Numbered from the stretch's first letter, positions 2,138 to 42,931 are shown. The stretch is DNA of 42,931 nt from Fibrobacterota bacterium (GCA_023249635.1 JAHFCH010000027.1:1-42931), one strand, 5' to 3'. Numbers and translations: made by a program. The notes: generated by a model not told the origin, from the letters alone.

Positions 2138-3640
2138 CTAGAGCCGTACCGCCAGGCGAAACGCGGTTCCGCCTTCCCCGCGGAACTCCGAGGCCCCCCC
2201 CAATTGGCCGCAAAGCGAATCGACGATTTGCAGACCCAGGGAATGCGAGCGGCGTTCTTCGAAATCAGGGGGCAGGCCAATCCCGTCATCACGTACCTCC
2301 AGGATCAATTCCCCGTCCGGCGTCGCCAGGCGCAGCGCGATGATACCGGAGCGTCCGCCCGGAAATGCGTACTTGAGGGCGTTGGAGACCAATTCATTGA
2401 TGATAAGCCCCAGCGGGATGGCCCAATTGATGTCCAGATCGACGGGCTGCACATCCAGGTCCAGGCGCACCTGCCCAGGAACCGTGGCATAGGTCTGCAT
2501 CAATTCCGCCGTAAGGCTGCCCACGTAATCCCCGAACTGGACCCGGGAGAGATCCTTGCCCTGGTAGAGCATCTCATGGATCAGGGACATGGAATTGACC
2601 CGTTCTTCGCTTTCCCGCATCATGGCCTTACCGCGCTCGTCCTGGATCTGGCCGGCCTGCAGCCGCAATAGGCTGGAGATGATCTGCAGGTTGTTCTTCA
2701 CCCGATGGTGGATCTCCTTGAGCAGGGCTTCTTTTTCCAGCAGCGCCTTGCGGATGCTTTCCTGGGCCTGCTTGCGCACGGTAACGTCGCGGATACCCGC
2801 GATGACGAGCGGCCCCTCGTCGGAGTCCATCGGATTGAAGGTGATTTCACCCGGGAATTCCGATCCGTCCTTGCGCCGCCCCCACGATTCCCATGCCTTG
2901 CCTTGTTCCTGCCCGGGCTGTACGCCCGAAAGGCCGTTCCCTTCCCCTAGCCGCCAGGCCGGCAGGAGCATTCCCATGGAGGCGTCGTCCAAATCCTCCG
3001 GAGCATATCCGAAGAGACGGCGCGTCTGTCCGTTGGCGAGCAGGATGCGCCCCATCCGATCGGCGACCAACATCGCATCCGGGGCCGCCTCCAGCAAGGC
3101 CCGGAATTGCCCTTGTGCCTTTTCCGCCCGTTGGCGCGCGGCCTCCGCCTCGTTGGCCAGGTCCAGCGCGGCGGCCTTCTGCTTTTCCAATTCCCGGTTC
3201 CGATCCCGCACCCGGCGTTCCAGCACGCCGGCGGAACGGGACAGGGCATCGTTGGCCTCGCGGATCTCGGTGATGTCGATACACGATCCGATGTAGCCCG
3301 CGAACGCGCCGTCGTTATGGTAGCGGGGCACGCCGGTATCCAGCACCCAACGGTACTGGCCATCGGCGCGCAGCATACGGTATTCCATGCGGAAGCGCTT
3401 GCGCGCCGCGAAAGCCGTCATGTAGATCTGCATGCAGTTCTGGAAATCCTCGAAATGCACGCTTTCCGCCCAGCCCACGCCCAGCTCCGATTCCATGGGA
3501 CGTCCGGTGAACTCGAGCCAACTGGCGTTGAAGTACATGCATTCGGAATCCTCCCCGGCCATCCATAGCAGCACGGGGGCGCTGTCGGCCATGGTCCGGA
3601 AGAGGGTTTCCCCATCGCGCACGGCCGTTTCAACCTGCAT
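2138..3640 (-). CDS. PAS-PAS sensor histidine kinase (HisKA_2 type)
   Basis: A 500-residue soluble histidine kinase without membrane segments. It has a PAS domain at about 10-128, a charged linker helix to about 175, a second PAS at about 176-290, a HisKA_2 dimerisation/phosphoacceptor segment with HHRVKNN at 311-317, and a C-terminal HATPase with NELVSNALKYAF (N box) and DDGIGLP (G1 box). HisKA_2 kinases usually phosphorylate stand-alone or atypical receivers. It is the last gene of the monooxygenase run and overlaps the end of the beta-subunit gene by 11 bases, so it should be translated with it. No receiver or DNA-binding gene follows. A natural inference is that a PAS domain reads substrate, redox state or oxygen linked to the oxygenase, but no ligand-defining residue can be named. 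Confidence 0.88.
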   Translation of the reverse strand: MQVETAVRDGETLFRTMADSAPVLLWMAGEDSECMYFNASWLEFTGRPMESELGVGWAESVHFEDFQNCMQIYMTAFAARKRFRMEYRMLRADGQYRWVLDTGVPRYHNDGAFAGYIGSCIDITEIREANDALSRSAGVLERRVRDRNRELEKQKAAALDLANEAEAARQRAEKAQGQFRALLEAAPDAMLVADRMGRILLANGQTRRLFGYAPEDLDDASMGMLLPAWRLGEGNGLSGVQPGQEQGKAWESWGRRKDGSEFPGEITFNPMDSDEGPLVIAGIRDVTVRKQAQESIRKALLEKEALLKEIHHRVKNNLQIISSLLRLQAGQIQDERGKAMMRESEERVNSMSLIHEMLYQGKDLSRVQFGDYVGSLTAELMQTYATVPGQVRLDLDVQPVDLDINWAIPLGLIINELVSNALKYAFPGGRSGIIALRLATPDGELILEVRDDGIGLPPDFEERRSHSLGLQIVDSLCGQLGGASEFRGEGGTAFRLAVRL

Positions 3641-4637
3641 GGACCTGCTCCCTCGGCTCTTTAGGCTCCTTAATGGTAGCGCGCGAGATACCCAGGGTCC
3701 CGCGCACGCCGTCGCGGATGAAGCCCTCGTCGAGTCCCGCCGAAGCCAACACGGGCGCGAACGCCAGGGCGGCCTCTTCGGCGATGGGCTGCCACTTGGA
3801 GCACCAGCCTTTGAGAGCGGCGGCGTTTCCGGGATCGGCTTCCGTCAGCATTCGCACCAACGCGGCGGTCCAATCGCGCTGCCAGCGGCAGTCCTCATGA
3901 AACGAAAGCAGGACGCTGGAAAGGGCTTCGTCGCCGGCCGCCGCAGCAACCCGGGAAAGATGGAACAGGAATACTTCATCCAGGGCCGGTTTGAGCGCCA
4001 GGTTCAGGGCCGTGAAAGCCTCTCCCCAATCGTAGGTGATCAACAGCTTTTCCACCGCTTGGCGCAAGGGCTGCCAGATGGGCTCCCACTCCCAGCAATA
4101 ACGGCTTTCCGTTCCCAGGCCGGGCCGGATGTCTTGCATTTGTCGCATGCGGTAGGCGATGCGTTCCACCCGGCGGACCTCGTCCCCGGTCTGGAGCAGC
4201 AGGCAGATGGCCAAGCGGCCTCCGGGCGCCATGCTGCCCACGTACGCGGAAACCATTTGCAAGCCGTGGAACGGATAACGCAACGGGCAAAGGATCCGAT
4301 CCAACAAGCGCAGGTAATCAGGATGCAAGCGTTGGTCCCGCTCCGCCCCGGAAGCGGATTTCAAGAGACCCTCGACGTAGACTTCCTTATCGCGGCGCGC
4401 CTCGACGTAAGCCGTGTAGGTCATTTCCGCGGGATCGCGGAACTGATCCCAATCCGCGCATTTCAGCGGTGAACCGGTCTGGTACCGTTGATACCAGTCT
4501 CCCACCGGCGTCTTGACCTCGAACCCGCGTCCGGGATAATACAGCAATCCCGTGGAGGCGATGTCGTAATCGGAAGGCTTACGGGCCGACTTTTCCAGGT
4601 TCCACCACGTCCTGCGGGGTCTCATGGGATTTCCCAT
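3630..4637 (-). CDS. tmoE: Toluene-4-monooxygenase-type hydroxylase beta subunit
   Basis: 335 residues, close to the roughly 327 of TmoE. It matches the family from the N-terminus, with a GLLYYPGRGFEVKTP segment, GDWYQRYQ and DWDQFRDPAEMTYTAYVE corresponding to conserved TmoE stretches. The beta subunit is the non-catalytic helical partner that pairs with alpha and gamma in the (alpha-beta-gamma)2 hydroxylase. It has no di-iron ligands of its own, as expected. The chosen ATG overlaps the effector gene by 16 bases; the ATG four codons downstream is an alternative. The C-terminus ends in a charged tail that overlaps the kinase start. Confidence 0.88.
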   Translation of the reverse strand: MGNPMRPRRTWWNLEKSARKPSDYDIASTGLLYYPGRGFEVKTPVGDWYQRYQTGSPLKCADWDQFRDPAEMTYTAYVEARRDKEVYVEGLLKSASGAERDQRLHPDYLRLLDRILCPLRYPFHGLQMVSAYVGSMAPGGRLAICLLLQTGDEVRRVERIAYRMRQMQDIRPGLGTESRYCWEWEPIWQPLRQAVEKLLITYDWGEAFTALNLALKPALDEVFLFHLSRVAAAAGDEALSSVLLSFHEDCRWQRDWTAALVRMLTEADPGNAAALKGWCSKWQPIAEEAALAFAPVLASAGLDEGFIRDGVRGTLGISRATIKEPKEPREQVHAG

Positions 4638-4951
4638 CTCGCCTCCGTTTCATCCACGCGGAACCGGCCCCGGAAGGAAGGCATTAACGCTTCCAGGTCC
4701 CCGGGTAGCCGGAAGGGGCGCCCAAGCTTCCGCTCCACCGCCACCCGGGTCAACCGGCATCCGCCCGGCGCGGAAACCCGCAGATAGGATCCCCGGTCAA
4801 AAACCTGTAAGCCATCATTGAGTGTCCGCATGGATTCGATCACGGCCAAAGCGGCTTCTCCGGCAATCAATACCGGTCCCGCACCCGCAGGTTCGCCGCT
4901 GCCTGGCTCCGCGGTTCCCGGCGTTACGGCGCGCGGGTCGTGTCCACCCAT
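4622..4951 (-). CDS. tmoD: Monooxygenase effector (coupling) protein, TmoD/MmoB family
   Basis: 109 residues. The core aligns by eye with TmoD from the GPVLIAG segment through LTRVAVERKLGRPF to the C-terminal SFRGRFRVDETEARWEI. Effector proteins bind the hydroxylase near the di-iron site and control oxygen activation and product profile, and they carry no cofactor. The first 25 residues are Gly/Pro/Glu-rich and extra compared with the family core. The start overlaps the Rieske ferredoxin gene by 28 bases, which is unusually long for this operon, so a later start is possible although no good internal ATG precedes the conserved core. Confidence 0.82.
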   Translation of the reverse strand: MGGHDPRAVTPGTAEPGSGEPAGAGPVLIAGEAALAVIESMRTLNDGLQVFDRGSYLRVSAPGGCRLTRVAVERKLGRPFRLPGDLEALMPSFRGRFRVDETEARWEIP

Positions 4952-5238
4952 ATCTCCCCTGCTTCCGATTTGGTTGCGTAAGCCCGCAAGCGCACATTTC
5001 CCGGATTGATGCCGGCCCCGGTAGCAGCATCGTAAGCGTATTCATGGGCCCGGCACGTTAATACCCCGTCACGGAAGCGGCCCTCGCTCATGGGAACCGC
5101 CTGATGCGCGCAGCGATCGGCGTAGGCATGCACGCGCCCAGCCTGCTTGAGCAACAACACCGGATTGCCTTCCACCTTGCAGGAGCGCATCTCCCCTTCC
5201 CACAGATCCCCCATGCCCTCGGCCTTGCACCAAGGCAT
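4924..5238 (-). CDS. tmoC: Rieske [2Fe-2S] ferredoxin of the monooxygenase
   Basis: 104 residues, near the 112 of T4MoC. The Rieske ligands are visible as C43-x-H45 (CAHQ) and C62-x2-H65 (CRAH), separated by 16 residues, followed by the conserved GINPGN turn. It passes electrons from a reductase to the di-iron hydroxylase. The frame is open far upstream, but the ATG at 5238 is chosen because it begins directly at the family N-terminus (MPWCKAE) two bases after the gamma-subunit stop. The reductase that should feed it (TmoF in Pseudomonas) is absent from the window. Confidence 0.9.
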   Translation of the reverse strand: MPWCKAEGMGDLWEGEMRSCKVEGNPVLLLKQAGRVHAYADRCAHQAVPMSEGRFRDGVLTCRAHEYAYDAATGAGINPGNVRLRAYATKSEAGEIWVDTTRAP

Positions 5239-5240
5239 GA

Positions 5241-5486
5241 TCAGTCGGCCTTCGCCGGATAGACATCCACCCGATCCAGGGCCGCCAACCCGGCCTGGGC
5301 CACCGTCATTTCCAAGTCGAGCTCGCGGCCTCCCGAAGCCACCCGGTTGCGTCCGGTGGGCACGACCCGCATGCAGGCGGCCTGTTCCAACGACTCGGCG
5401 ATGCGCGCGACGGGATCGGTATCCTGTACCAGTACAATGAGCCCCAATGTGTCGCCGAGCAGGAATCCGTACAAGGGGACCAGCAT
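5241..5486 (-). CDS. tmoB: Monooxygenase hydroxylase gamma subunit
   Basis: 81 residues, matching the size of TmoB (about 84). The N-terminus (VPLYGFLLGD) and the pattern VLVQDTDPVARIAE followed by VVPTG fit the small ubiquitin-like gamma subunit of toluene monooxygenases. It is a structural part of the hydroxylase without a cofactor. The ATG directly abuts the alpha-subunit stop and the ferredoxin follows after two bases, which is the canonical tmoABC order. Confidence 0.85.
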   Translation of the reverse strand: MLVPLYGFLLGDTLGLIVLVQDTDPVARIAESLEQAACMRVVPTGRNRVASGGRELDLEMTVAQAGLAALDRVDVYPAKAD

Positions 5487-6983
5487 CTAACCTGCCTCCC
5501 GTTTCGCCCAGGGGTAATGGCCGCGGTGCGCATCCCGTCCCCAATCGCCCGGCGAGAGCCCGAAGTGGCGGAGCAATTGCAGCAGGTTCGCGGGAGCTTC
5601 GCCCGCCAGAATGCGCTTGACCACGTCCTTGTGCCCCTCGTACCGGTCCGGTTCCTTTTCGAACAGCCATTGGCAAGGTTCGGAGCAGAAGATATGCGCA
5701 TCGGTACCGCGCCGGATTACCCGGGCGTGGTTGTTGCCGGGAGCGCCTTCGCACAAGACCATCTGGCACAGGGCGCAGAAGCCTACCGGGGTGGCCCCAT
5801 GGGTATGCCATTCCACTTCGGGACCGACTTCCTTCCATCTTTCCGAGATACGATCCCAAATCGGCTCGAACTCCGGCCAGGAATCCGGGTACTTCTCCCG
5901 CAGCCAAGCGCGTTCTTCAGGTCCGGGCACGACCATATCGAACCAGACCGTAGCCCGGTAGGTATAGGCGGAAGCGTAGACCATGTGGTGGTAGTTATCC
6001 AGCGAGGCGAGGAAGGTATCCCAATACCAAGGCCGCTTAAGCCCCATCTCCTCCAGCGATGCCTGGAATTGGCCGAGGACCCACTCCTGCATGAATTCCT
6101 TGAAGGAGGCGGTGCGATCGCGCACCGGGGTCAGGTAGTCCATGGCGAACCCGGTGACCACCGCGAAGAAATGCCAACTCCGCCAGAACCATTTGTCCAC
6201 CAGGTATTGCGCGTATTCCGGATCGTGCTTCACCAAAGTGGCGAGCACGGGTTTGCCGATTTGCGCGTGGCGCGCCTCGTCGGTCTGGATGCTGTTGACC
6301 ATGTTCTCGAACATGCGATCACCGGTATTGCGCGCCAGGGAAGATAGGCCGATGAATTGCAGGTTGGTAAACCCGGTTTCGAAAACGAAATTCGTTCCCA
6401 CCGCGAACTCGATGGGATTCGCGCAGAGCAGCAATTCGTCCGCGAGATGGCGCCCGGCCACGGCGACCCAATTCTCGCTATGGAAGAACTTATGCGTCCA
6501 ATCGAATTGGGGATCCCACGGCAACAGGCCATGCATCAGGAGCAAGGGAATCTGGGTATGCCGGAATTCATCCATGGCGCCGAAGGCCGCCGTGGTGCGC
6601 CAAGCGGAGTCGCGCCCGAACCGCGCGGCCCGCAGGTTTCCGATTGCGGCGGCGAATTCGGCGAGCGGTAAGGTAGCGGAATGCAATTTCAGCGCGCTCA
6701 GCCACGGACGTTCCAGGCGCGCGAAATCCTCCGGGCGCCCGATGGCTTCCCGCACCGCGTTCACGGAGGCCTCTTTGGCCACCTGCGAGGAAACGTATTC
6801 GGTATACGAGGTACGATACGGTTCGTCCCAATCGGCCCAGTCCTGGTGGGAGAGCCAAGGGGTTCCGCTCATCGCTTCGGGGAAAACGTCTTTAGCGTCG
6901 ACGTAGGAGAAGCCCCAATCCAGCTTACGCGCCAAATCGTGCCATTGTTCCCGCTTAAGGGAACGGGTCGCCTCATCTTTCAT
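5487..6983 (-). CDS. tmoA: Toluene-4-monooxygenase-type hydroxylase alpha subunit, di-iron
   Basis: A 498-residue catalytic subunit that inserts one oxygen atom of O2 into an aromatic or alkene substrate. All six carboxylate/histidine di-iron ligands are in place: E109, E139 and H142 (DEFRH), then E202, E236 and H239 (DEARH). T206 in FETGFTN corresponds to the conserved active-site threonine T201 of T4MO. The pocket positions aligned with T4MO I100 and G103 are L105 and A108, so regioselectivity may differ from the Pseudomonas enzyme. The C-terminal region carries a cysteine set (C403, C406, C411, C433, C437) in a YHS-like fold segment, which the Pseudomonas T4MO sequence as I recall it lacks there. 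The start overlaps the upstream hybrid kinase stop as ATGA. The substrate itself cannot be read from sequence; phenol, toluene or small alkenes are possible. Confidence 0.93.
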   Translation of the reverse strand: MKDEATRSLKREQWHDLARKLDWGFSYVDAKDVFPEAMSGTPWLSHQDWADWDEPYRTSYTEYVSSQVAKEASVNAVREAIGRPEDFARLERPWLSALKLHSATLPLAEFAAAIGNLRAARFGRDSAWRTTAAFGAMDEFRHTQIPLLLMHGLLPWDPQFDWTHKFFHSENWVAVAGRHLADELLLCANPIEFAVGTNFVFETGFTNLQFIGLSSLARNTGDRMFENMVNSIQTDEARHAQIGKPVLATLVKHDPEYAQYLVDKWFWRSWHFFAVVTGFAMDYLTPVRDRTASFKEFMQEWVLGQFQASLEEMGLKRPWYWDTFLASLDNYHHMVYASAYTYRATVWFDMVVPGPEERAWLREKYPDSWPEFEPIWDRISERWKEVGPEVEWHTHGATPVGFCALCQMVLCEGAPGNNHARVIRRGTDAHIFCSEPCQWLFEKEPDRYEGHKDVVKRILAGEAPANLLQLLRHFGLSPGDWGRDAHRGHYPWAKREAG

Positions 6984-25554: not shown

Positions 25555-27789
25555 TCAGGGGACGCCGGTCCAGGTAAGGCTCATCGTCGACCATATGCCG
25601 TTATCGATGAGGCCAATCGGATCAGGAATGGCCTTGAAGACGATGGCATCCCCGGCCGAAACCTTCCATACCGCCGACACCTCGCATTCTTGCCAATAGG
25701 GCGTGGTGGCATTGATCGAATGCACGAGGGAATTCGCGATTGCGGACGTATTCACGTAAGCGACGATGGTGGCATAGACCGCCCCGGTGGACCGGCTGAC
25801 GACATCGTAGCCCGCATGCATATTCACGACGCCGGCCTTGAGGATGGTAATGCTTCCATCGGCCTGGGGCGCGAAAACCGTCGCATCGGAATTCTGCTTG
25901 ATGGTGGTATACTTGAGGTTGATCTGGCTCGCATTGACCACCGGGGCCGCAAAGTCCGCCGCGTTGGACAACCAGGCGTGCAAACTCGCTACATCCAACA
26001 TGTTGGTTGCTTTGATCTTTCCCGCCACTTCCAACATCTCCGCCGGCGCGTAGGTTCCGATACCGACTTTGCCCGCGCTGGTAACGGTAACGCCCTGGTC
26101 CGAGCTGTTGAGCAGACGGACGGTGCTGGTATTGTCATCCGCCATCAGGCTGCCGAAGAAATCGGTGGTACCGACCTTCATCAGCTTGATCTGGGGGCTG
26201 GGACCGCCGCCGGGATTGCCGCGCAAGACCATTCCGTTGCTGACCACCTCAAGAGCGCCGGTGCCTGCCGGACCCGCCCCCGTAACGCTGACGTTACCGG
26301 TAAAAGCCGCTCCCGCCAGGTTGGCCTTGGCTCCCAGCCGCGTCGCCAGGCCGGTAACCGAATCCGCCGACAATTGCAGCATGGTCGCGCGACCGGGCAC
26401 CAGGGCCAGGGAATCGGGCGATGCGATGGCGTAGGAGAGCACCTTCACCTGGTCTAGCATGCCTTTGAGTCCATTGCTGCCCGCGACCGGACCGCCCACG
26501 TACAGATCCGTGCTGTCCAGAGCCAGCGGCCCGTAGCTGTAGGGCTGGAAGAAGGTGAGTTTGCCGTTGACGAAACCGCGCAGGGATTTCCCGTCGTAGG
26601 TGGCCTGGATGGTGGCCCATGCCCCCGAGGGCACATCCCCATCCCCGATCCAGGCGGTATCGCTGCCAACGGCATGGATGCGCATCTTGAGTTTGTTCTT
26701 GATCACCGCCAACTCGTACTGATTCGGTTTGCGTATGACGATCTGCGTGTCCAGCGCGGGGACTTCCGTGGACAAGGATACTTTCGCCGACAGCGTGATT
26801 TCGCGGTAGGGGTTCAAGGAAAGGGTATTCTTCGCCACCGCGTAGCCCGTTCCCACCAATTGCAGGGCCGAATCGCCGTCGGCCACCTTGACCTTGAGCA
26901 CGTTATCCGAAAACTTGAGGGTATTGCCGTTCCCTGACAAGTCCAGGGTGGAATCCTTGAAAAGTTTATCGAAAGGGTAATAGGCCCGATAGCCGCGGTC
27001 CTGGAGCAGATTGAAGACCAGGCTCTGATCGCCGGGAATGCCCGAGGTCCCCTGATCGCCCTTTACGCCCGCGGGTCCGGTATCGCCTTTGTCCCCTTTG
27101 TCCCCTTTGTCCCCTTTAAGGCCGGTACTACCGGCATCGCCTTTGGAACCGGTAGATCCGCGAAGCTGATCCGCGTACTTGGCCGCGAGGGCGGCCGCTA
27201 CGCTCTCCACCGGGGCAGTGCCCGTACCCGTGGAAGATGTGTATCCCAGATAGAGGATGGCTCCATGCGAGCCCTCCAGGGCCCCGATCTCCGCATCCAG
27301 TCCACCGGTGCCTTCCAGCACCAGGCCCGCGAAACTGCCCTCCCGCACGCTTTTCAGGAACGCCTCGCCCAGGGGAATGGAGATGATGGTTTCGGCATTC
27401 GCGGCCGCCCCGATGGCGACGCTTGCGATGGTATCCGGCTTGGCCTTGAGGTAATCGAAGCGCGTCTGGCTTTCCAAATAATTGAGGCCCGTGGCCAGGG
27501 AAACCTTCAGGTTACCGTCGCGGACCACGTCCTTTACGTAGATGGCCAACCTTGCCTTGACCAGGCCATCGCCCGCCCCGTCGGCCAGCGCGTGGCTGAT
27601 CCAGGCCTTGGTCGCTCCCGCACGCACCACCAGGGTGCGCGAGTTCCCGATCCAGCTGGAGGGATCCGCGTAGCCATCCTTGAATGGCGTGAAGGGGGTT
27701 TCGAGGACGCCTCCCTTTGCGGTACCGATTGCGGTTCCGATCACTGACAACGTCAGTACGAGATGCCGAAGGTTCGGGGATAGTCGCAT
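25555..27789 (-). CDS. Exported collagen-like protein with LamG and C1q-like domains
   Basis: 744 residues. Signal peptide about 1-26. An N-terminal beta domain (about 27-185) resembles DNRLRE-type wall-protein modules. A collagen-like stretch of about 15 Gly-x-y triplets spans 211-255 with a KGDKGDKGD core. A LamG/concanavalin-like domain (about 265-470) follows, including YYPFDKLFKDSTLDLSGNG. Residues about 500-600 resemble tail-fibre stalks (VGIGTYAPAEMLEVAGKI). The C-terminal about 130 residues resemble a C1q/TNF-like head. The overall plan suggests a trimeric surface fibre or adhesin. It is the last of five exported-protein genes, starting three bases after the previous stop with a GGAG element. 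Confidence 0.75.
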   Translation of the reverse strand: MRLSPNLRHLVLTLSVIGTAIGTAKGGVLETPFTPFKDGYADPSSWIGNSRTLVVRAGATKAWISHALADGAGDGLVKARLAIYVKDVVRDGNLKVSLATGLNYLESQTRFDYLKAKPDTIASVAIGAAANAETIISIPLGEAFLKSVREGSFAGLVLEGTGGLDAEIGALEGSHGAILYLGYTSSTGTGTAPVESVAAALAAKYADQLRGSTGSKGDAGSTGLKGDKGDKGDKGDTGPAGVKGDQGTSGIPGDQSLVFNLLQDRGYRAYYPFDKLFKDSTLDLSGNGNTLKFSDNVLKVKVADGDSALQLVGTGYAVAKNTLSLNPYREITLSAKVSLSTEVPALDTQIVIRKPNQYELAVIKNKLKMRIHAVGSDTAWIGDGDVPSGAWATIQATYDGKSLRGFVNGKLTFFQPYSYGPLALDSTDLYVGGPVAGSNGLKGMLDQVKVLSYAIASPDSLALVPGRATMLQLSADSVTGLATRLGAKANLAGAAFTGNVSVTGAGPAGTGALEVVSNGMVLRGNPGGGPSPQIKLMKVGTTDFFGSLMADDNTSTVRLLNSSDQGVTVTSAGKVGIGTYAPAEMLEVAGKIKATNMLDVASLHAWLSNAADFAAPVVNASQINLKYTTIKQNSDATVFAPQADGSITILKAGVVNMHAGYDVVSRSTGAVYATIVAYVNTSAIANSLVHSINATTPYWQECEVSAVWKVSAGDAIVFKAIPDPIGLIDNGIWSTMSLTWTGVP
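27091..27117 (-). repeat. 9-bp tandem repeat encoding KGD triplets
   Basis: Three perfect copies of a 9-base unit (forward strand GTCCCCTTT) encode consecutive Lys-Gly-Asp-type codons in the collagen-like segment, with a diverged copy before them. Because the unit is three codons, gain or loss changes stalk length without a frameshift. Confidence 0.85.
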
Positions 27790-27792
27790 GGA

Positions 27793-29286
27793 TTACTCCG
27801 GTCGCAACCGGAAACCGGCTGCCAAAGTGTGGGAATGCCAGTCGGGAAGCGGGGCGTTGGCGGCGAGCTTGCCGGCCACGGGAGCATAAGCGTATTCCAG
27901 GGTCCGCAAGGTATCCCCCATGATTTCGTCTTTGACCACGGACCTGCGGAGCAAGCCCAGGGAATCGTACCGGAAGGTTTCGGATAGTTCCAAGGTCCGC
28001 GAAACCCCTTCGGAATACAAGAGCCGCAATGCCAAAGCGCCAAGGGCGTTATACCGGAATTGTTCCGTCCGGAACGGTGCCGTTTCGGTTTTGGGGATAA
28101 GTACGGTGGCTTCGGAAAGTTGCCCGGATTTGTATCCGCTGCGTACGACTCGATCAAGGGTGGACTTGCCACCGGTTCGGGCGAAAATGGAATCCACGGT
28201 TACCGCGTCAAAAGCGGAATCCTTTCCCGTAACCCGCACCAGCTCGCGCACCAGTGAACCCGAAACATAAGTCTTGATGGATGCCAGTACCGTGCCGGAG
28301 TAGATCATGGAGTCGGAAAGCACGGCGCCGGCTTGCGAGACTTCCACGCTCGACAACCGATCGTCTTGGGACCAGGAAAGCAACGAGTCGAGGTCACCCG
28401 CGGTCGCCGACCAGGAATGGACTTTCACCAGCCGACCTGATCCGTCGTAGCCGTATGCGGAGCCGGCCGTAGGGTTCCGCGCCGGTACCAAGGTACTGTC
28501 ATAGACGATGGCGGAATCGAGACGACCCAGGGAAGTGTACCGGTAGAGGGTGGTGGACCCGGTGGCATCGCCCGGCTTGCGCGTTGTCACCATACGCGCG
28601 AGACGGCGGACGGCGGGTTTGCCGATGATGGTGACGTCCCAGATGATGCGCTCCACTATGGTATCCCCGCTGCGGGCGTGGATTTTTACGGATACGTTCA
28701 ACCCGGCCAGGGAATCTCCCGGAGTCCATGCGAGTTTCCGGCCGTCCCCTTCGGCGATGACGCTATCCCCCAGGCGGATCCACCATCGGTAAGTGATTCC
28801 CGCCGTAGAGTCCAATTCAATGTTGAACCCCAGCCCCGTGCGCGCGACCGCGTAAGCCGAGGGAAGATACGCGGGCAGAACACGCCTATCGTCCAGGCGG
28901 GCCTTGACCGTGGCCACGCTGTCACGGTTCCACACCGGCTCCAGGGTTATCGACATGTCCTTGGCGAAGCTGCCCTTGGCCTCGCCCTTCCCGATTTCGA
29001 TGCCTTTGGAATACAAGACGAAATCCAACTTGTATTTTTCCCCGGGAAACGCCTGCACATCGGCCGTGCTCACGCCGGTGCGCAAATCCACGGAAAGCGC
29101 TTGGGCTTTGCCCGTGTCCCCCACCGTAATCCGGATGTCGAGGCGATCCAGGGGCAGATTCTCGGGAACGGATTTCAGCACGAACTGGACGGAGAATCCC
29201 TCCGGAACCGGCGTGGAGGGCGATCCGGTACAGGCGACCAGGAGCCAAAGGCCCAGGAGCGCGAAGAGCCGCAACCGCATCGTCAT
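27793..29286 (-). CDS. Lipoprotein with YD-like repeats, unknown function
   Basis: 497 residues from an ATG that overlaps the previous stop as ATGA. Signal peptide with lipobox LVAC (Cys19). Residues about 25-130 form a beta-rich region of the sort found in carbohydrate-binding or Ig-like modules. The C-terminal half has YRYTSLGRLDSA, YGYDGSGRLVKV, FRYNALGALALRL and FRYDSLGLLRRS, four segments with the Y-D-x-x-G-R-L pattern of RHS/YD repeats. No toxin domain follows, so this is not a complete RHS element. Fourth gene of the exported-protein run. Confidence 0.65.
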   Translation of the reverse strand: MTMRLRLFALLGLWLLVACTGSPSTPVPEGFSVQFVLKSVPENLPLDRLDIRITVGDTGKAQALSVDLRTGVSTADVQAFPGEKYKLDFVLYSKGIEIGKGEAKGSFAKDMSITLEPVWNRDSVATVKARLDDRRVLPAYLPSAYAVARTGLGFNIELDSTAGITYRWWIRLGDSVIAEGDGRKLAWTPGDSLAGLNVSVKIHARSGDTIVERIIWDVTIIGKPAVRRLARMVTTRKPGDATGSTTLYRYTSLGRLDSAIVYDSTLVPARNPTAGSAYGYDGSGRLVKVHSWSATAGDLDSLLSWSQDDRLSSVEVSQAGAVLSDSMIYSGTVLASIKTYVSGSLVRELVRVTGKDSAFDAVTVDSIFARTGGKSTLDRVVRSGYKSGQLSEATVLIPKTETAPFRTEQFRYNALGALALRLLYSEGVSRTLELSETFRYDSLGLLRRSVVKDEIMGDTLRTLEYAYAPVAGKLAANAPLPDWHSHTLAAGFRLRPE

Positions 29287-29939
29287 TCGCCTTCTCCCGG
29301 GGTGATGACTTGAACCTTTACGGGCCGGGGTGTCTCGGCGGTAGAGGCCGGTGATGCGTCGCCGGCCAAGGCGAAATAGAGGGCGACACCGGCACCGACC
29401 CCGGCTACGGTACCCCATATGGCGTAGGTTTTCCAGGCGGTAGCGGGGGCATGGGCCACGGGGGCGAGCTCCTGGGCCGGCGCTTTCGCGACCGGCGCGG
29501 GTTCGGGCGTAGGACTTACCTGCGGCGCGGGCTTGTCCTGCGATTTGTTGAAGCGATCATAGTCGTTCTTGACTTTGGCGAATATGGCTTCGATGTTGTC
29601 GGAGATATACAGATCAATAAGATCGATGGTGGGCATCATGCGGATCAACTGGAACATGAAGCTTTCCGCCCTCGCCCGCGAGGCGGGTTCGGAAGCATAG
29701 ATAACGCTCAGATACTTATAGGTGTAGATGGAATCGTCCCGGCTCATGGACTTGGACTTCTTGAGGAAGGTTTCCAAGGCCTTCTGGACGGGCGGGAAAT
29801 CGCCTTCGAAATAGGCTTTGCTGACCACCTGCTTGTCGAGGGAACCGTCCGGATTGATGCCGGGTATGGGTGCGGGCGCGCCCGCCAGTGCGGACAGCGA
29901 TAACATTGCGATCAAAAGTCCGGTTAGCGGGAGTTTCAT
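29283..29939 (-). CDS. Exported membrane-anchored protein, unknown
   Basis: 218 residues from the ATG at 29939, which overlaps the upstream stop as ATGA; the longer frame adds a charged region with no signal and is rejected. A cleavable signal peptide (about 1-20, ending ALAGAP) precedes a helical domain (about 35-130, with YFEGDFPPVQKALETFLKKS and a RMMPTIDLIDLYISDNI stretch). A Pro/Ala linker follows (about 140-170), then one membrane helix at about 174-196 and a short tail. I do not recognise a family. Third gene of the exported run. Confidence 0.6.
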   Translation of the reverse strand: MKLPLTGLLIAMLSLSALAGAPAPIPGINPDGSLDKQVVSKAYFEGDFPPVQKALETFLKKSKSMSRDDSIYTYKYLSVIYASEPASRARAESFMFQLIRMMPTIDLIDLYISDNIEAIFAKVKNDYDRFNKSQDKPAPQVSPTPEPAPVAKAPAQELAPVAHAPATAWKTYAIWGTVAGVGAGVALYFALAGDASPASTAETPRPVKVQVITPGEGE

Positions 29940-30352
29940 TTGTTTTGGAATTCCTCGTCCTCGTTCTTGCCTTCGTTCTCCTTGACCTCTTGATCGATCA
30001 TCTGTTTTTCGATCTTCTCCTGGACGATCTTCTGTTCCCATTCACGGAAAGACTGATCGAGCAGCTTCCGCTTTTCATTCAGGTTGGCGGATAGGTCGAT
30101 GAGTTTACCGCGCACCAGGTCGCGTTCCTTGATCAGCCGATCCTCATCGGGATGCAGTTCCAGATTGTTCATAACGATGATGTATTCGGTTTCGAGATCA
30201 TGCCGCTTGTCCTCCAAGCGGGCGATTTCCAACTGTTCCTGGTTGATGCGATTGCCGTATTCGGTGAACGCGCAGCCGGAGGGAAGGATCAATAATGCGG
30301 CGAGGGCGGGTAGCCGGAGTAGACGCCTAGTATTCGTAGATGTCTTCTTCAT
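29936..30352 (-). CDS. Small coiled-coil lipoprotein, unknown
   Basis: 138 residues. Signal peptide with lipobox PSGC (Cys27). The mature part is nearly all charged helix with heptad character from about 38 to 125, and a Glu/Asn-rich tail (NEGKNEDEEFQNK). Such lipoproteins often act as membrane-anchored spacers or adaptors, but no family is recognised. It overlaps the upstream gene by 26 bases and the downstream gene by four. Confidence 0.62.
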   Translation of the reverse strand: MKKTSTNTRRLLRLPALAALLILPSGCAFTEYGNRINQEQLEIARLEDKRHDLETEYIIVMNNLELHPDEDRLIKERDLVRGKLIDLSANLNEKRKLLDQSFREWEQKIVQEKIEKQMIDQEVKENEGKNEDEEFQNK

Positions 30353-31244
30353 ACCGGTAAAGGTGGATCGGCGTTTCGACCTTTTCCGCCTTGAGCTCCA
30401 GCGTAAGATCCGAGCTTTCCGTCTTGGATTGGAAGCACGGCAATCCGGTCTTGGTCTCCACGGAATACTGCAATACGCCGCTGATGACGGAGCGTCCCCA
30501 AGTGTACTTGCGGTACTTCCGGTTCTGGACGTTGGAGAAGAAGAATTGCTCCATCAGCAAGGAAAGCGAATCGGTACGATGGTAGTTGAGGGTGAAATCC
30601 AGGCAGGACTTGCGCAGACGGGGACGTGGACCATCGAAGCGGGCCGAATCGATGTGCAACGTTTCCAGTGTTTTGTTCAAGGCTTCCGCCGAAAGCGGCT
30701 GACGGGCCTCGAGCTTGATGCCGCGAGGCAGGAAGCGTTCCATGCGCCACCAGTCGCGCCACTCGGCGCGGTAGCGGGCGGTATCCGAGGCGGCCAGCAA
30801 TTGCTTGCGGAAGTCCTCGCGCTGCTGGATGCGTCCGAGTACGGGGATCAGGGAATCGTAGCCGTCGATGCGCGCAGGCATGAAACCGGAATCGAGGGTA
30901 AGGCGTAGCTCGATTTTCTTCTCCAGCTCGTGGGGCATGGACAGCTTGTGGTAGCCGCGGGCCACCATGGTATCCAGTTTCCGGGAAAGGGTCCAGCCCG
31001 GTCCCTGCTTCTCGAGGTCGTATGCGAGAGTGGTCTGGAAGATGGTGCCTTCGACTTCCTTTTCCTCGTCCAGCTTGGAAGAATAGGTGCCGAGATGGAA
31101 GACGCGGAAATGCGCCGAGTCCGGGGCCTTGGGAGCGTAGACGGCGGTGCGTTCGCAATCGAAGAGGCCGAGCGCTAGCGAAAGCAGGGCGGCGGTCCGG
31201 GCGGCGCCGCCGGCACGGCGCGCTAGGGAAAAATCAGTGGGCAT
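30327..31244 (-). CDS. Exported protein, unknown, first of a five-gene run
   Basis: 305 residues. An N-terminal signal sequence (about 8-28) leads to Cys30 in GLFDC; aspartate before the cysteine is a poor lipobox, so it may be secreted rather than lipidated. The mature part mixes beta and helix. Two segments are notable: SFMPARIDGYDSL-like DSGFMPARIDGYDS, and a Trp-rich WRDWWRMERFLPRG. No family is recognised. An AAAGGG Shine-Dalgarno and a TATATT box (31266-31271) precede the ATG. Confidence 0.6.
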   Translation of the reverse strand: MPTDFSLARRAGGAARTAALLSLALGLFDCERTAVYAPKAPDSAHFRVFHLGTYSSKLDEEKEVEGTIFQTTLAYDLEKQGPGWTLSRKLDTMVARGYHKLSMPHELEKKIELRLTLDSGFMPARIDGYDSLIPVLGRIQQREDFRKQLLAASDTARYRAEWRDWWRMERFLPRGIKLEARQPLSAEALNKTLETLHIDSARFDGPRPRLRKSCLDFTLNYHRTDSLSLLMEQFFFSNVQNRKYRKYTWGRSVISGVLQYSVETKTGLPCFQSKTESSDLTLELKAEKVETPIHLYRYEEDIYEY

Positions 31245-42001: not shown

Positions 42002-42931
42002 CTATTTGATGTTGCGGAAATCGAGGAAGAGCGAACCGGGACGCTGGGATGCGTAATCCAGGCCTATCCAGGAAGCGGATCGCGGCATGCGGCCCACCCG
42101 CGCTTCGTCCATGCGTCCCAGGAAGAAGTCCACTTCCGCCCGATTGGGGTCGGCATCGCCGCGGGCGCCGATTACGATGTCCCGTGCGGTGGCCGGAACC
42201 GCGGCGGGACCGATGGTTTCCCGGGCCAGAACCGTTCCGTCCCAATACAGCACGGCCTCATTGCCATCGAAGGAGGCCGAGGCCAAATGCCATGCGCCGG
42301 TTACGCTACCCGCCGGGATACCTTCTATGCGGTGGACCTGATTCGCGCCCCCGCCGGCGGGTTTTACCCCCAAGGTCAAGCGTAACCCCTTCCCCGCCCC
42401 GGGAAAGCCCAGGATATATCCGGCGGAATCATTTTCTTCCCACTTCGCCAACAAGGCGCGCGGGCCCGGTTCGGTGCCGTCGAATCCGGGCGCGATCCAA
42501 ATCGAAAGCATCACCGGACCATTGCGGATGAGCCCCGCGGTATCCTGGGCATAAGCATAGGCGCCTGTCCCGTCGAAGGCCTGCCCGACGCCGATCCCGG
42601 CCACATCGGAGCCATCGGGAACCAGCTGTTTGGCCAGCGTAGGCAGCGCATTGGGCGTGGCATCTTGCAGGGACTTCTTCCCTGGCGAAGCATCGGCCAT
42701 ATGCCATACGCCGACATTCCCGGTCGCGGTATCGAATACGAACCTGTCATCGCGGAGGGCGGTAGCGGAGGGGTTACCCCAGTGCATCAACAGGGCTTGG
42801 CCCGCGCCCGATGCCCGCAATGCCGGGAGCCGCACCCAGATTTCCGCGCGCCCCGCGTTCGCGTCCCAGTGCTCGATCGCGAATGCCAAAGGATCCCCAT
42901 TCACTGCGGTAAATCGGAGATCCGAGCCGTC
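42002..42931 (-). CDS. DUF2341-LamG exported protein, N-terminus beyond window
   Basis: The frame is open at the right edge, so only about 309 C-terminal residues are visible. The part up to about residue 60 of the visible chain (DGSDLRFTAVNG through QALLMHWGNP) is the end of a DUF2341 domain. A LamG/concanavalin-like domain follows with VGVWHMADA, a calcium-site-like DSAGYILGFPG region and a FLGRMDEARVG strand. The combination is common in large secreted proteins of biomass-degrading bacteria. The stop is 142 bases before the beta-helix gene on the same strand; that gap shows no other gene. Confidence 0.78.
   Translation of the reverse strand, partial: DGSDLRFTAVNGDPLAFAIEHWDANAGRAEIWVRLPALRASGAGQALLMHWGNPSATALRDDRFVFDTATGNVGVWHMADASPGKKSLQDATPNALPTLAKQLVPDGSDVAGIGVGQAFDGTGAYAYAQDTAGLIRNGPVMLSIWIAPGFDGTEPGPRALLAKWEENDSAGYILGFPGAGKGLRLTLGVKPAGGGANQVHRIEGIPAGSVTGAWHLASASFDGNEAVLYWDGTVLARETIGPAAVPATARDIVIGARGDADPNRAEVDFFLGRMDEARVGRMPRSASWIGLDYASQRPGSLFLDFRNIK

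Follow-up and report, generated by a model that had tools for sequence, protein, structure and literature searches.

Do five tightly packed genes, all encoding exported proteins, build one dedicated surface structure, as the initial annotation of this locus proposed? The genes (g1 to g5, Table 1) lie on the minus strand of a 42,931-nucleotide window, contig C222 of a 6.75-Mb draft genome. Its owner is a soil bacterium, not yet cultured, that is related to Fibrobacter from the rumen. The coordinates of all five open reading frames and the junctions of -26, -4, -4 and +3 bases between them proved exact, and the coding potential, computed with a home-made hexamer gene caller, backs each frame. 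At the locus, no promoter or terminator signal exceeded those of shuffled sequences. The export signals proposed for all five products were confirmed, with clear lipoboxes in g2 and g4, signal peptides in g3 and g5, and in g1 a hydrophobic N-terminus that ends at a cysteine (LGLFDC). Because relatives carry canonical lipoboxes at the same place and the cysteine is invariant (alignment A7), g1 is probably a lipoprotein as well. The YD-like repeats read in g4 were recovered with PF05593 (25.3 bits for a cut-off of 22). As for g5, described as a collagen, LamG and C1q-like protein, its collagen and Laminin_G_3 segments pass the Pfam cut-offs, while the C1q-like C-terminus is a reading by eye that neither Pfam, nor a PDB sequence search, nor phage records recognised. 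No family match was obtained for g1-g3 in Pfam or NCBIfam.

Table 1. Genes and protein segments of the locus (window coordinates; aa, amino acids).
Feature	Coordinates	Strand	Description
g1	30327..31244	-	305 aa; single-copy lipoprotein-like protein of the class Fibrobacteria; neighbour, outside the cassette
g2	29936..30352	-	138 aa; coiled-coil lipoprotein; neighbour, outside the cassette
g3	29283..29939	-	218 aa; signal peptide, TPR-like domain, Pro-rich linker, glycine-rich TM helix, C-terminal tail
g3 TPR-like helical domain, aa 34-131	29547..29840	-	AlphaFold model
g3 glycine-rich transmembrane helix, aa 172-193	29361..29426	-	sequence and family-wide features
g3 tail motif PRPVKVQVITP, aa 204-214	29298..29330	-	restricted to g4-linked g3 genes
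g4	27793..29286	-	497 aa; lipoprotein, two beta-sandwiches, RHS/YD-type beta-hairpin repeats; PF05593 and model
g5	25555..27789	-	744 aa; exported chimeric fibre protein
g5 N-terminal base domain, ~aa 29-187	27229..27705	-	stays conserved as shaft and tip vary
g5 collagen-like Gly-X-Y run, aa 211-255	27025..27159	-	PF01391
g5 LamG/concanavalin-like domain, aa 314-455	26425..26850	-	PF13385, 51.5 bits
g5 phage-tail-fibre-like shaft segment, ~aa 472-600	25990..26376	-	weak 8ond match; PF12789 in the C232 paralogue
g5 C-terminal tip, aa 612-744	25558..25956	-	C1q-like by eye; differs between paralogues

Gene order in related genomes splits the run in two. Genome searches and individual stretches, on which these counts rest, placed g1 in 116 of the 168 genomes of the phylum, one copy each, all inside the class Fibrobacteria and none outside it, and g2 next to g1 in 15 of 21 relatives. 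In every relative of the family that was checked, g1 and g2 are adjacent without g3-g5. The order in these genomes (L016-L022) is miaA, (nudix), g1, g2, followed by a converging tatD, and in 7/7 nothing lies between the stops of g2 and tatD, whose spacing ranges from -11 to +136 bp; genes of the relatives were predicted with a simple hexamer method. Members of the sister genus (L021, L022) even retain the 26-bp overlap between g1 and g2. The window, by contrast, has 4.4 kb with g3, g4 and g5 between the two stops: g3 starts on the stop of g2, and the stop of g5 abuts that of tatD. Judged by this gene order, g1-g2 is an ancient, single-copy pair of lipoprotein genes in the class Fibrobacteria, and g3-g4-g5 is a 4.4-kb cassette inserted exactly between the g2 and tatD stops, as read from a draft assembly among genomes that are all MAG-grade. 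No direct or inverted repeats of the kind left by a mobile element pair the two cassette boundaries.

The three inserted genes recur as a set. The g4 profile retrieves exactly five loci in the 168 genomes, spread over two families, and both g3 and g5 stand alongside g4 at 5/5 of them; the strong matches to the g5 base, six of six, also fall inside these loci. Besides the window, they comprise two stand-alone runs in the same genome (C232 and C119), a copy in a genus-mate (G001 C69), where a stop interrupts g4 and g5 is shortened, and a locus in an AT-rich genome of another family (G010 C279), where the order is changed to fibre, g4, fibre, g3. None of these four includes g1-g2. The genus-mate copy (L069, 7716-10695) looks decayed, its g5 ending before the tip. 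In another class (G092), a 354-aa exported YD-repeat protein is encoded 11 bp upstream of a 562-aa base-collagen-tip protein, so that g4-like and g5-like genes are paired there in the absence of g3. The proposal of a dedicated surface structure is thus supported for g3, g4 and g5, which recur together and look like an anchor or scaffold plus a fibre, and is not supported for the five-gene set. All five products are exported and their genes are tightly packed, as one structure would have it; however, each of the two parts occurs without the other, and on the synteny in relatives we reject five genes acting as one system, a reading to which we accord almost no probability. The co-occurrence of all five in other genomes, for which the initial annotation proposed a search, was not found, and g1-g2 present the very situation that it had named as speaking against a single set.

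What would such a cassette display? The product of g5 is a chimera, in which a signal peptide, base, collagen run, LamG domain, phage-tail-like segment and tip follow one another. Its paralogues are 44-66% identical in most 50-residue windows up to about residue 500 and unrelated beyond, and the three copies of this genome end in three unrelated C-termini, hence different tips on related fibres. In the g5-type proteins of G010, other stretches resembling phage tail fibres take the place of the collagen, and the base is kept. Phage tail-fibre families match the collagen part of g5, residues 492-596 weakly match Bdellovibrio Bd2133 (8ond) in a PDB sequence search (E = 0.005), and the phage tail repeat PF12789 occupies the corresponding place in the C232 paralogue. 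For the base, the PDB yielded no sequence match and no known fold was found by sequence; for the tip, phage records and the PDB yielded no relatives. We infer that g5 forms a homotrimeric fibre with an exchangeable tip, which would be exposed at the surface and mediate adhesion to a ligand.

Two known kinds of adhesin resemble this plan. In the accessible text on the mosaic adhesive trimer (MAT) fibres of Bdellovibrio (PMC10769870), these consist of a conserved beta-rich domain after the signal peptide, a shaft and variable tips, and g5 is alike in its tips exchanged within one genome. By position and conservation, its base may correspond to the conserved domain after the signal peptide, and its shaft may be of the same phage-tail-like kind. 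By contrast, g5 has collagen and LamG segments, no predation is known for its host, and its gene stands beside those of g3 and an RHS lipoprotein, company that does not appear in that text. By analogy, g5 likely works like a MAT fibre. Lcl of Legionella, a bacterial collagen-like adhesin (PMC11162425), presents a binding head at the C-terminal end of a trimeric, collagen-like stalk, a plan similar to that of g5, in which a collagen region is present (PF01391). Only the Gly-X-Y run of g5 matches the Lcl model NF046116, however, and far below its cut-off (28 bits versus 500); head and N-terminus differ, and Pfam detected no Lcl/DUF1566 C-terminal domain in g5.

The neighbouring lipoprotein g4 carries, behind its lipobox, two beta-sandwiches and then beta-hairpin repeats. 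Its structural model (m1063d92b9bd4), based on four sequences, reaches moderate confidence (pLDDT 63), and the best PDB fold matches of this model are RHS proteins and teneurins, with E between 1e-6 and 1e-5. g4 thus shares YD-type beta-hairpin repeats (PF05593) and, judging by the model's matches, fold with RHS effectors and teneurins, and differs from RHS proteins in its short repeat region, its lipid anchor, the lack of a toxin domain and the lack of a closed shell in the model. We considered g4 as an RHS polymorphic toxin and rejected it, the C-terminal toxin domain behind the RHS core being absent: the protein ends with the repeats and about 30 residues, and no toxin family was matched.

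The third cassette member, g3, belongs to a far larger family. This genome holds 19 g3 matches, as a rule each with a lipoprotein partner of its own, and its genus-mates 9-18, with a common layout of signal peptide, TPR-like domain, glycine-rich helix and short tail. AlphaFold models the TPR-like domain as helices only, with a pLDDT above 90 over most of it; a fold search gave no significant match, with TPR proteins among the weak ones. Six genomes contain 85 g3 matches and 94 matches to a lipoprotein N-terminal domain, and a g3 gene is followed by such a lipoprotein gene 59 times, for about 0.04 expected per genome. Among 68 short g3 copies examined, 55 have a lipobox gene downstream on the same strand and five a gene for an FHA-TM-lytic transglycosylase. 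The N-domain, about 110 residues directly after the lipidated cysteine, is common to 50 of 51 non-g4 partner lipoproteins (E from 5e-5 to 1e-29, with a profile built with each protein's relatives left out), and has no Pfam or PDB match; behind it stand Big_2, Big_13, PKD, cadherin-like, BNR or RCC1 parts. Ten control lipoproteins scored about zero, except g4 of G010, which matches weakly (17.8 bits). In g4 of this genus the N-domain was not detected, its scores being near 0 (hhalign P = 0.11); a P of 0.0006 was obtained only after adding the G010 sequence, itself a match, and hence lends no independent support.

Many g3-lipoprotein junctions overlap or are closely spaced, the pairing persists throughout the six genomes and extends to another family (G010 C233), and the TPR and N-domain distances correlate (r = 0.73, 0/2000 permutations). 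A full g3 gene is missing upstream of 35 of the 94 N-domain lipoproteins. Of 20 such regions, several have instead a shorter exported helix-tail protein with little or no TPR (L152, L153, L165-L167, L169). These shorter proteins keep helix and tail without the TPR domain, and helix and tail are therefore the constant part. Most likely, then, the g3 family and its partner lipoproteins form an undescribed protein-display kit present in 9-19 copies per genome, to which two genes of the cassette would belong; we found no literature on such pairs in Fibrobacterota. SusC/SusD of Bacteroidota likewise occur as numerous paralogous pairs in a genome, with a variable surface lipoprotein as one of the two partners. 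Unlike that system, g3 is a small TPR-TM protein with no TonB-dependent barrel and no Pfam match.

Several arrangements around this family were noted in passing. The FHA-TM-lytic transglycosylase partner occurs in five of the six genus genomes (L057, 4631-6292; L120, L129, L133, L143). In L153, L165, L166, L167 and L169, a conserved unit near an rRNA/tRNA methyltransferase-like gene pairs an N-domain lipoprotein with a short exported protein that has the helix and tail; in all of these except L166, a third exported gene comes next, with a barrel-like outer-membrane ending (...RLGVLF). At L151 (1-8310), a PEGA protein with a g3-type C-terminal helix precedes two tandem N-domain lipoproteins, the complete one with RCC1 repeats. 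Two relatives of g3 are single-copy: L068 (5730-6881), with TPR, CsgG/TolB-like and PEGA parts by eye and no Pfam hit, and L066 (5683-6888), with TPR and, replacing the helix, a probable outer-membrane barrel below the Pfam cut-off. They are possible ancestors of the expanded family. In a more distant Fibrobacteria genome, four proteins (G012 C198, C580, C61 and C65) match the g3 profile mostly over its linker, helix and tail and possibly represent a distant branch of the kit.

Which part of g3 selects the partner, and in which membrane? The C-terminal motif P.PV.[VL].V[IV]TP is present in 4/4 g4-linked g3 proteins of the genus and in 0/64 others. In the C119 copy, the TPR domain is 74% identical to that of a family member with a non-g4 partner and 33-36% identical to those of the other g4-linked g3 proteins, and yet the protein keeps the g4-type tail, a single natural swap event. 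Since the TPR domain was replaced while the tail stayed, the tail, rather than the TPR domain, probably recognises the partner lipoprotein. A tail that touches the lipoprotein must lie outside the cytoplasm. Charges around the helix are positive before it (mean +1.16) and negative after it (mean -0.49), with 52 of 68 g3 copies more positive before than after, a pattern that argues against an ordinary inner-membrane stop-transfer anchor, without settling the matter. A helix placed in the outer membrane would fit best. The alternative is that g3-type proteins are inner-membrane chaperones or tethers, whose periplasmic TPR domain holds the lipoprotein in transit and whose tail is cytoplasmic and makes no partner contact. 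A signal peptide with a single C-terminal TM helix is the usual make-up of such anchors, TPR domains commonly bind peptides, and the FHA-TM-lytic transglycosylase that some g3 genes precede is probably an inner-membrane protein. However, the flank charges are the reverse of the positive-inside rule, it is the tail that stays with g4 in the C119 copy, some partner proteins have helix and tail and no TPR, and in L066 the TPR is fused to a probable, below-cut-off, outer-membrane barrel in the helix's place. We consider an inner-membrane tether unlikely.

The genes might also merely travel together: g3 and lipoprotein genes would be adjacent through duplication of the unit, without joint action, and g5 would be independent of both. 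Unit duplication alone would yield the observed distance correlation, and the example of g1-g2 shows that neighbours in an operon do not necessarily work together at this locus. Against it stand the tight junctions of many pairs, the maintenance of pairing across genomes and in another family, a tail motif that tracks g4 after TPR replacement, and the g4-g5 pairing in another class; we regard it as distinctly improbable. We give somewhat more credence than doubt to a composite operon, in which the old g1-g2 pair is joined by the inserted g3-g4-g5 adhesin cassette and g3 is part of a lineage-wide display kit. In such an operon, a self-contained cassette would have landed between the g2 and tatD stops. 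Its g5 homotrimer would be built like a phage tail fibre, with base, collagen triple helix, LamG, shaft and exchangeable tip, and g4 would sit in the outer membrane as a lipoprotein with a scaffold of YD repeats and bear the fibre via the conserved g5 base. As dedicated lipoprotein partner, g3 would place its TPR-like domain in the periplasm, its membrane helix and short tail would hold or hand over the lipoprotein, and the tail would set partner specificity, each of the 9-19 g3-type partners serving its own lipoprotein, mostly of the Ig/PKD/BNR type. The most likely function of the g3-lipoprotein pairs is to anchor or export surface lipoproteins, which in this cassette would carry an adhesive fibre. 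A more specific version, which we put forward only tentatively and rather doubt, has the glycine-rich helix span the outer membrane and a tail strand dock on the conserved N-domain of its own lipoprotein, with 9-19 duplicates bearing private tail-lipoprotein codes and some loci adding a phage-like fibre.

The apparent five-gene oddity thus resolves into two testable findings, a portable fibre cassette and a gene-pair family. The one would be a portable cassette for an adhesive fibre whose tips can be exchanged, carried by a soil bacterium that has not been cultured; the other is an undescribed family, neither conserved part of which matches Pfam, that takes up an appreciable part of the genome. 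Should the tail be an address label for the lipoprotein, the natural domain swap shows the working of the code, which can then be looked for in other genomes.

Elsewhere in the window, positions 3630-6983 on the minus strand hold an operon for a soluble diiron monooxygenase, here in a genome of the Fibrobacteria. Its two hydroxylase subunits are of the phenol/toluene diiron type (PF02332); between them lie two ORFs, one short and Rieske-like (4924-5238), the other small and coupling-protein-like (5241-5486), and two PAS histidine kinases flank the set. At 42002-42931, also on the minus strand, an ORF cut by the window end combines DUF2341 and LamG, a pair with which several of the N-domain display lipoproteins (L152, L154) also end, and this ORF may be a further member of the display kit.
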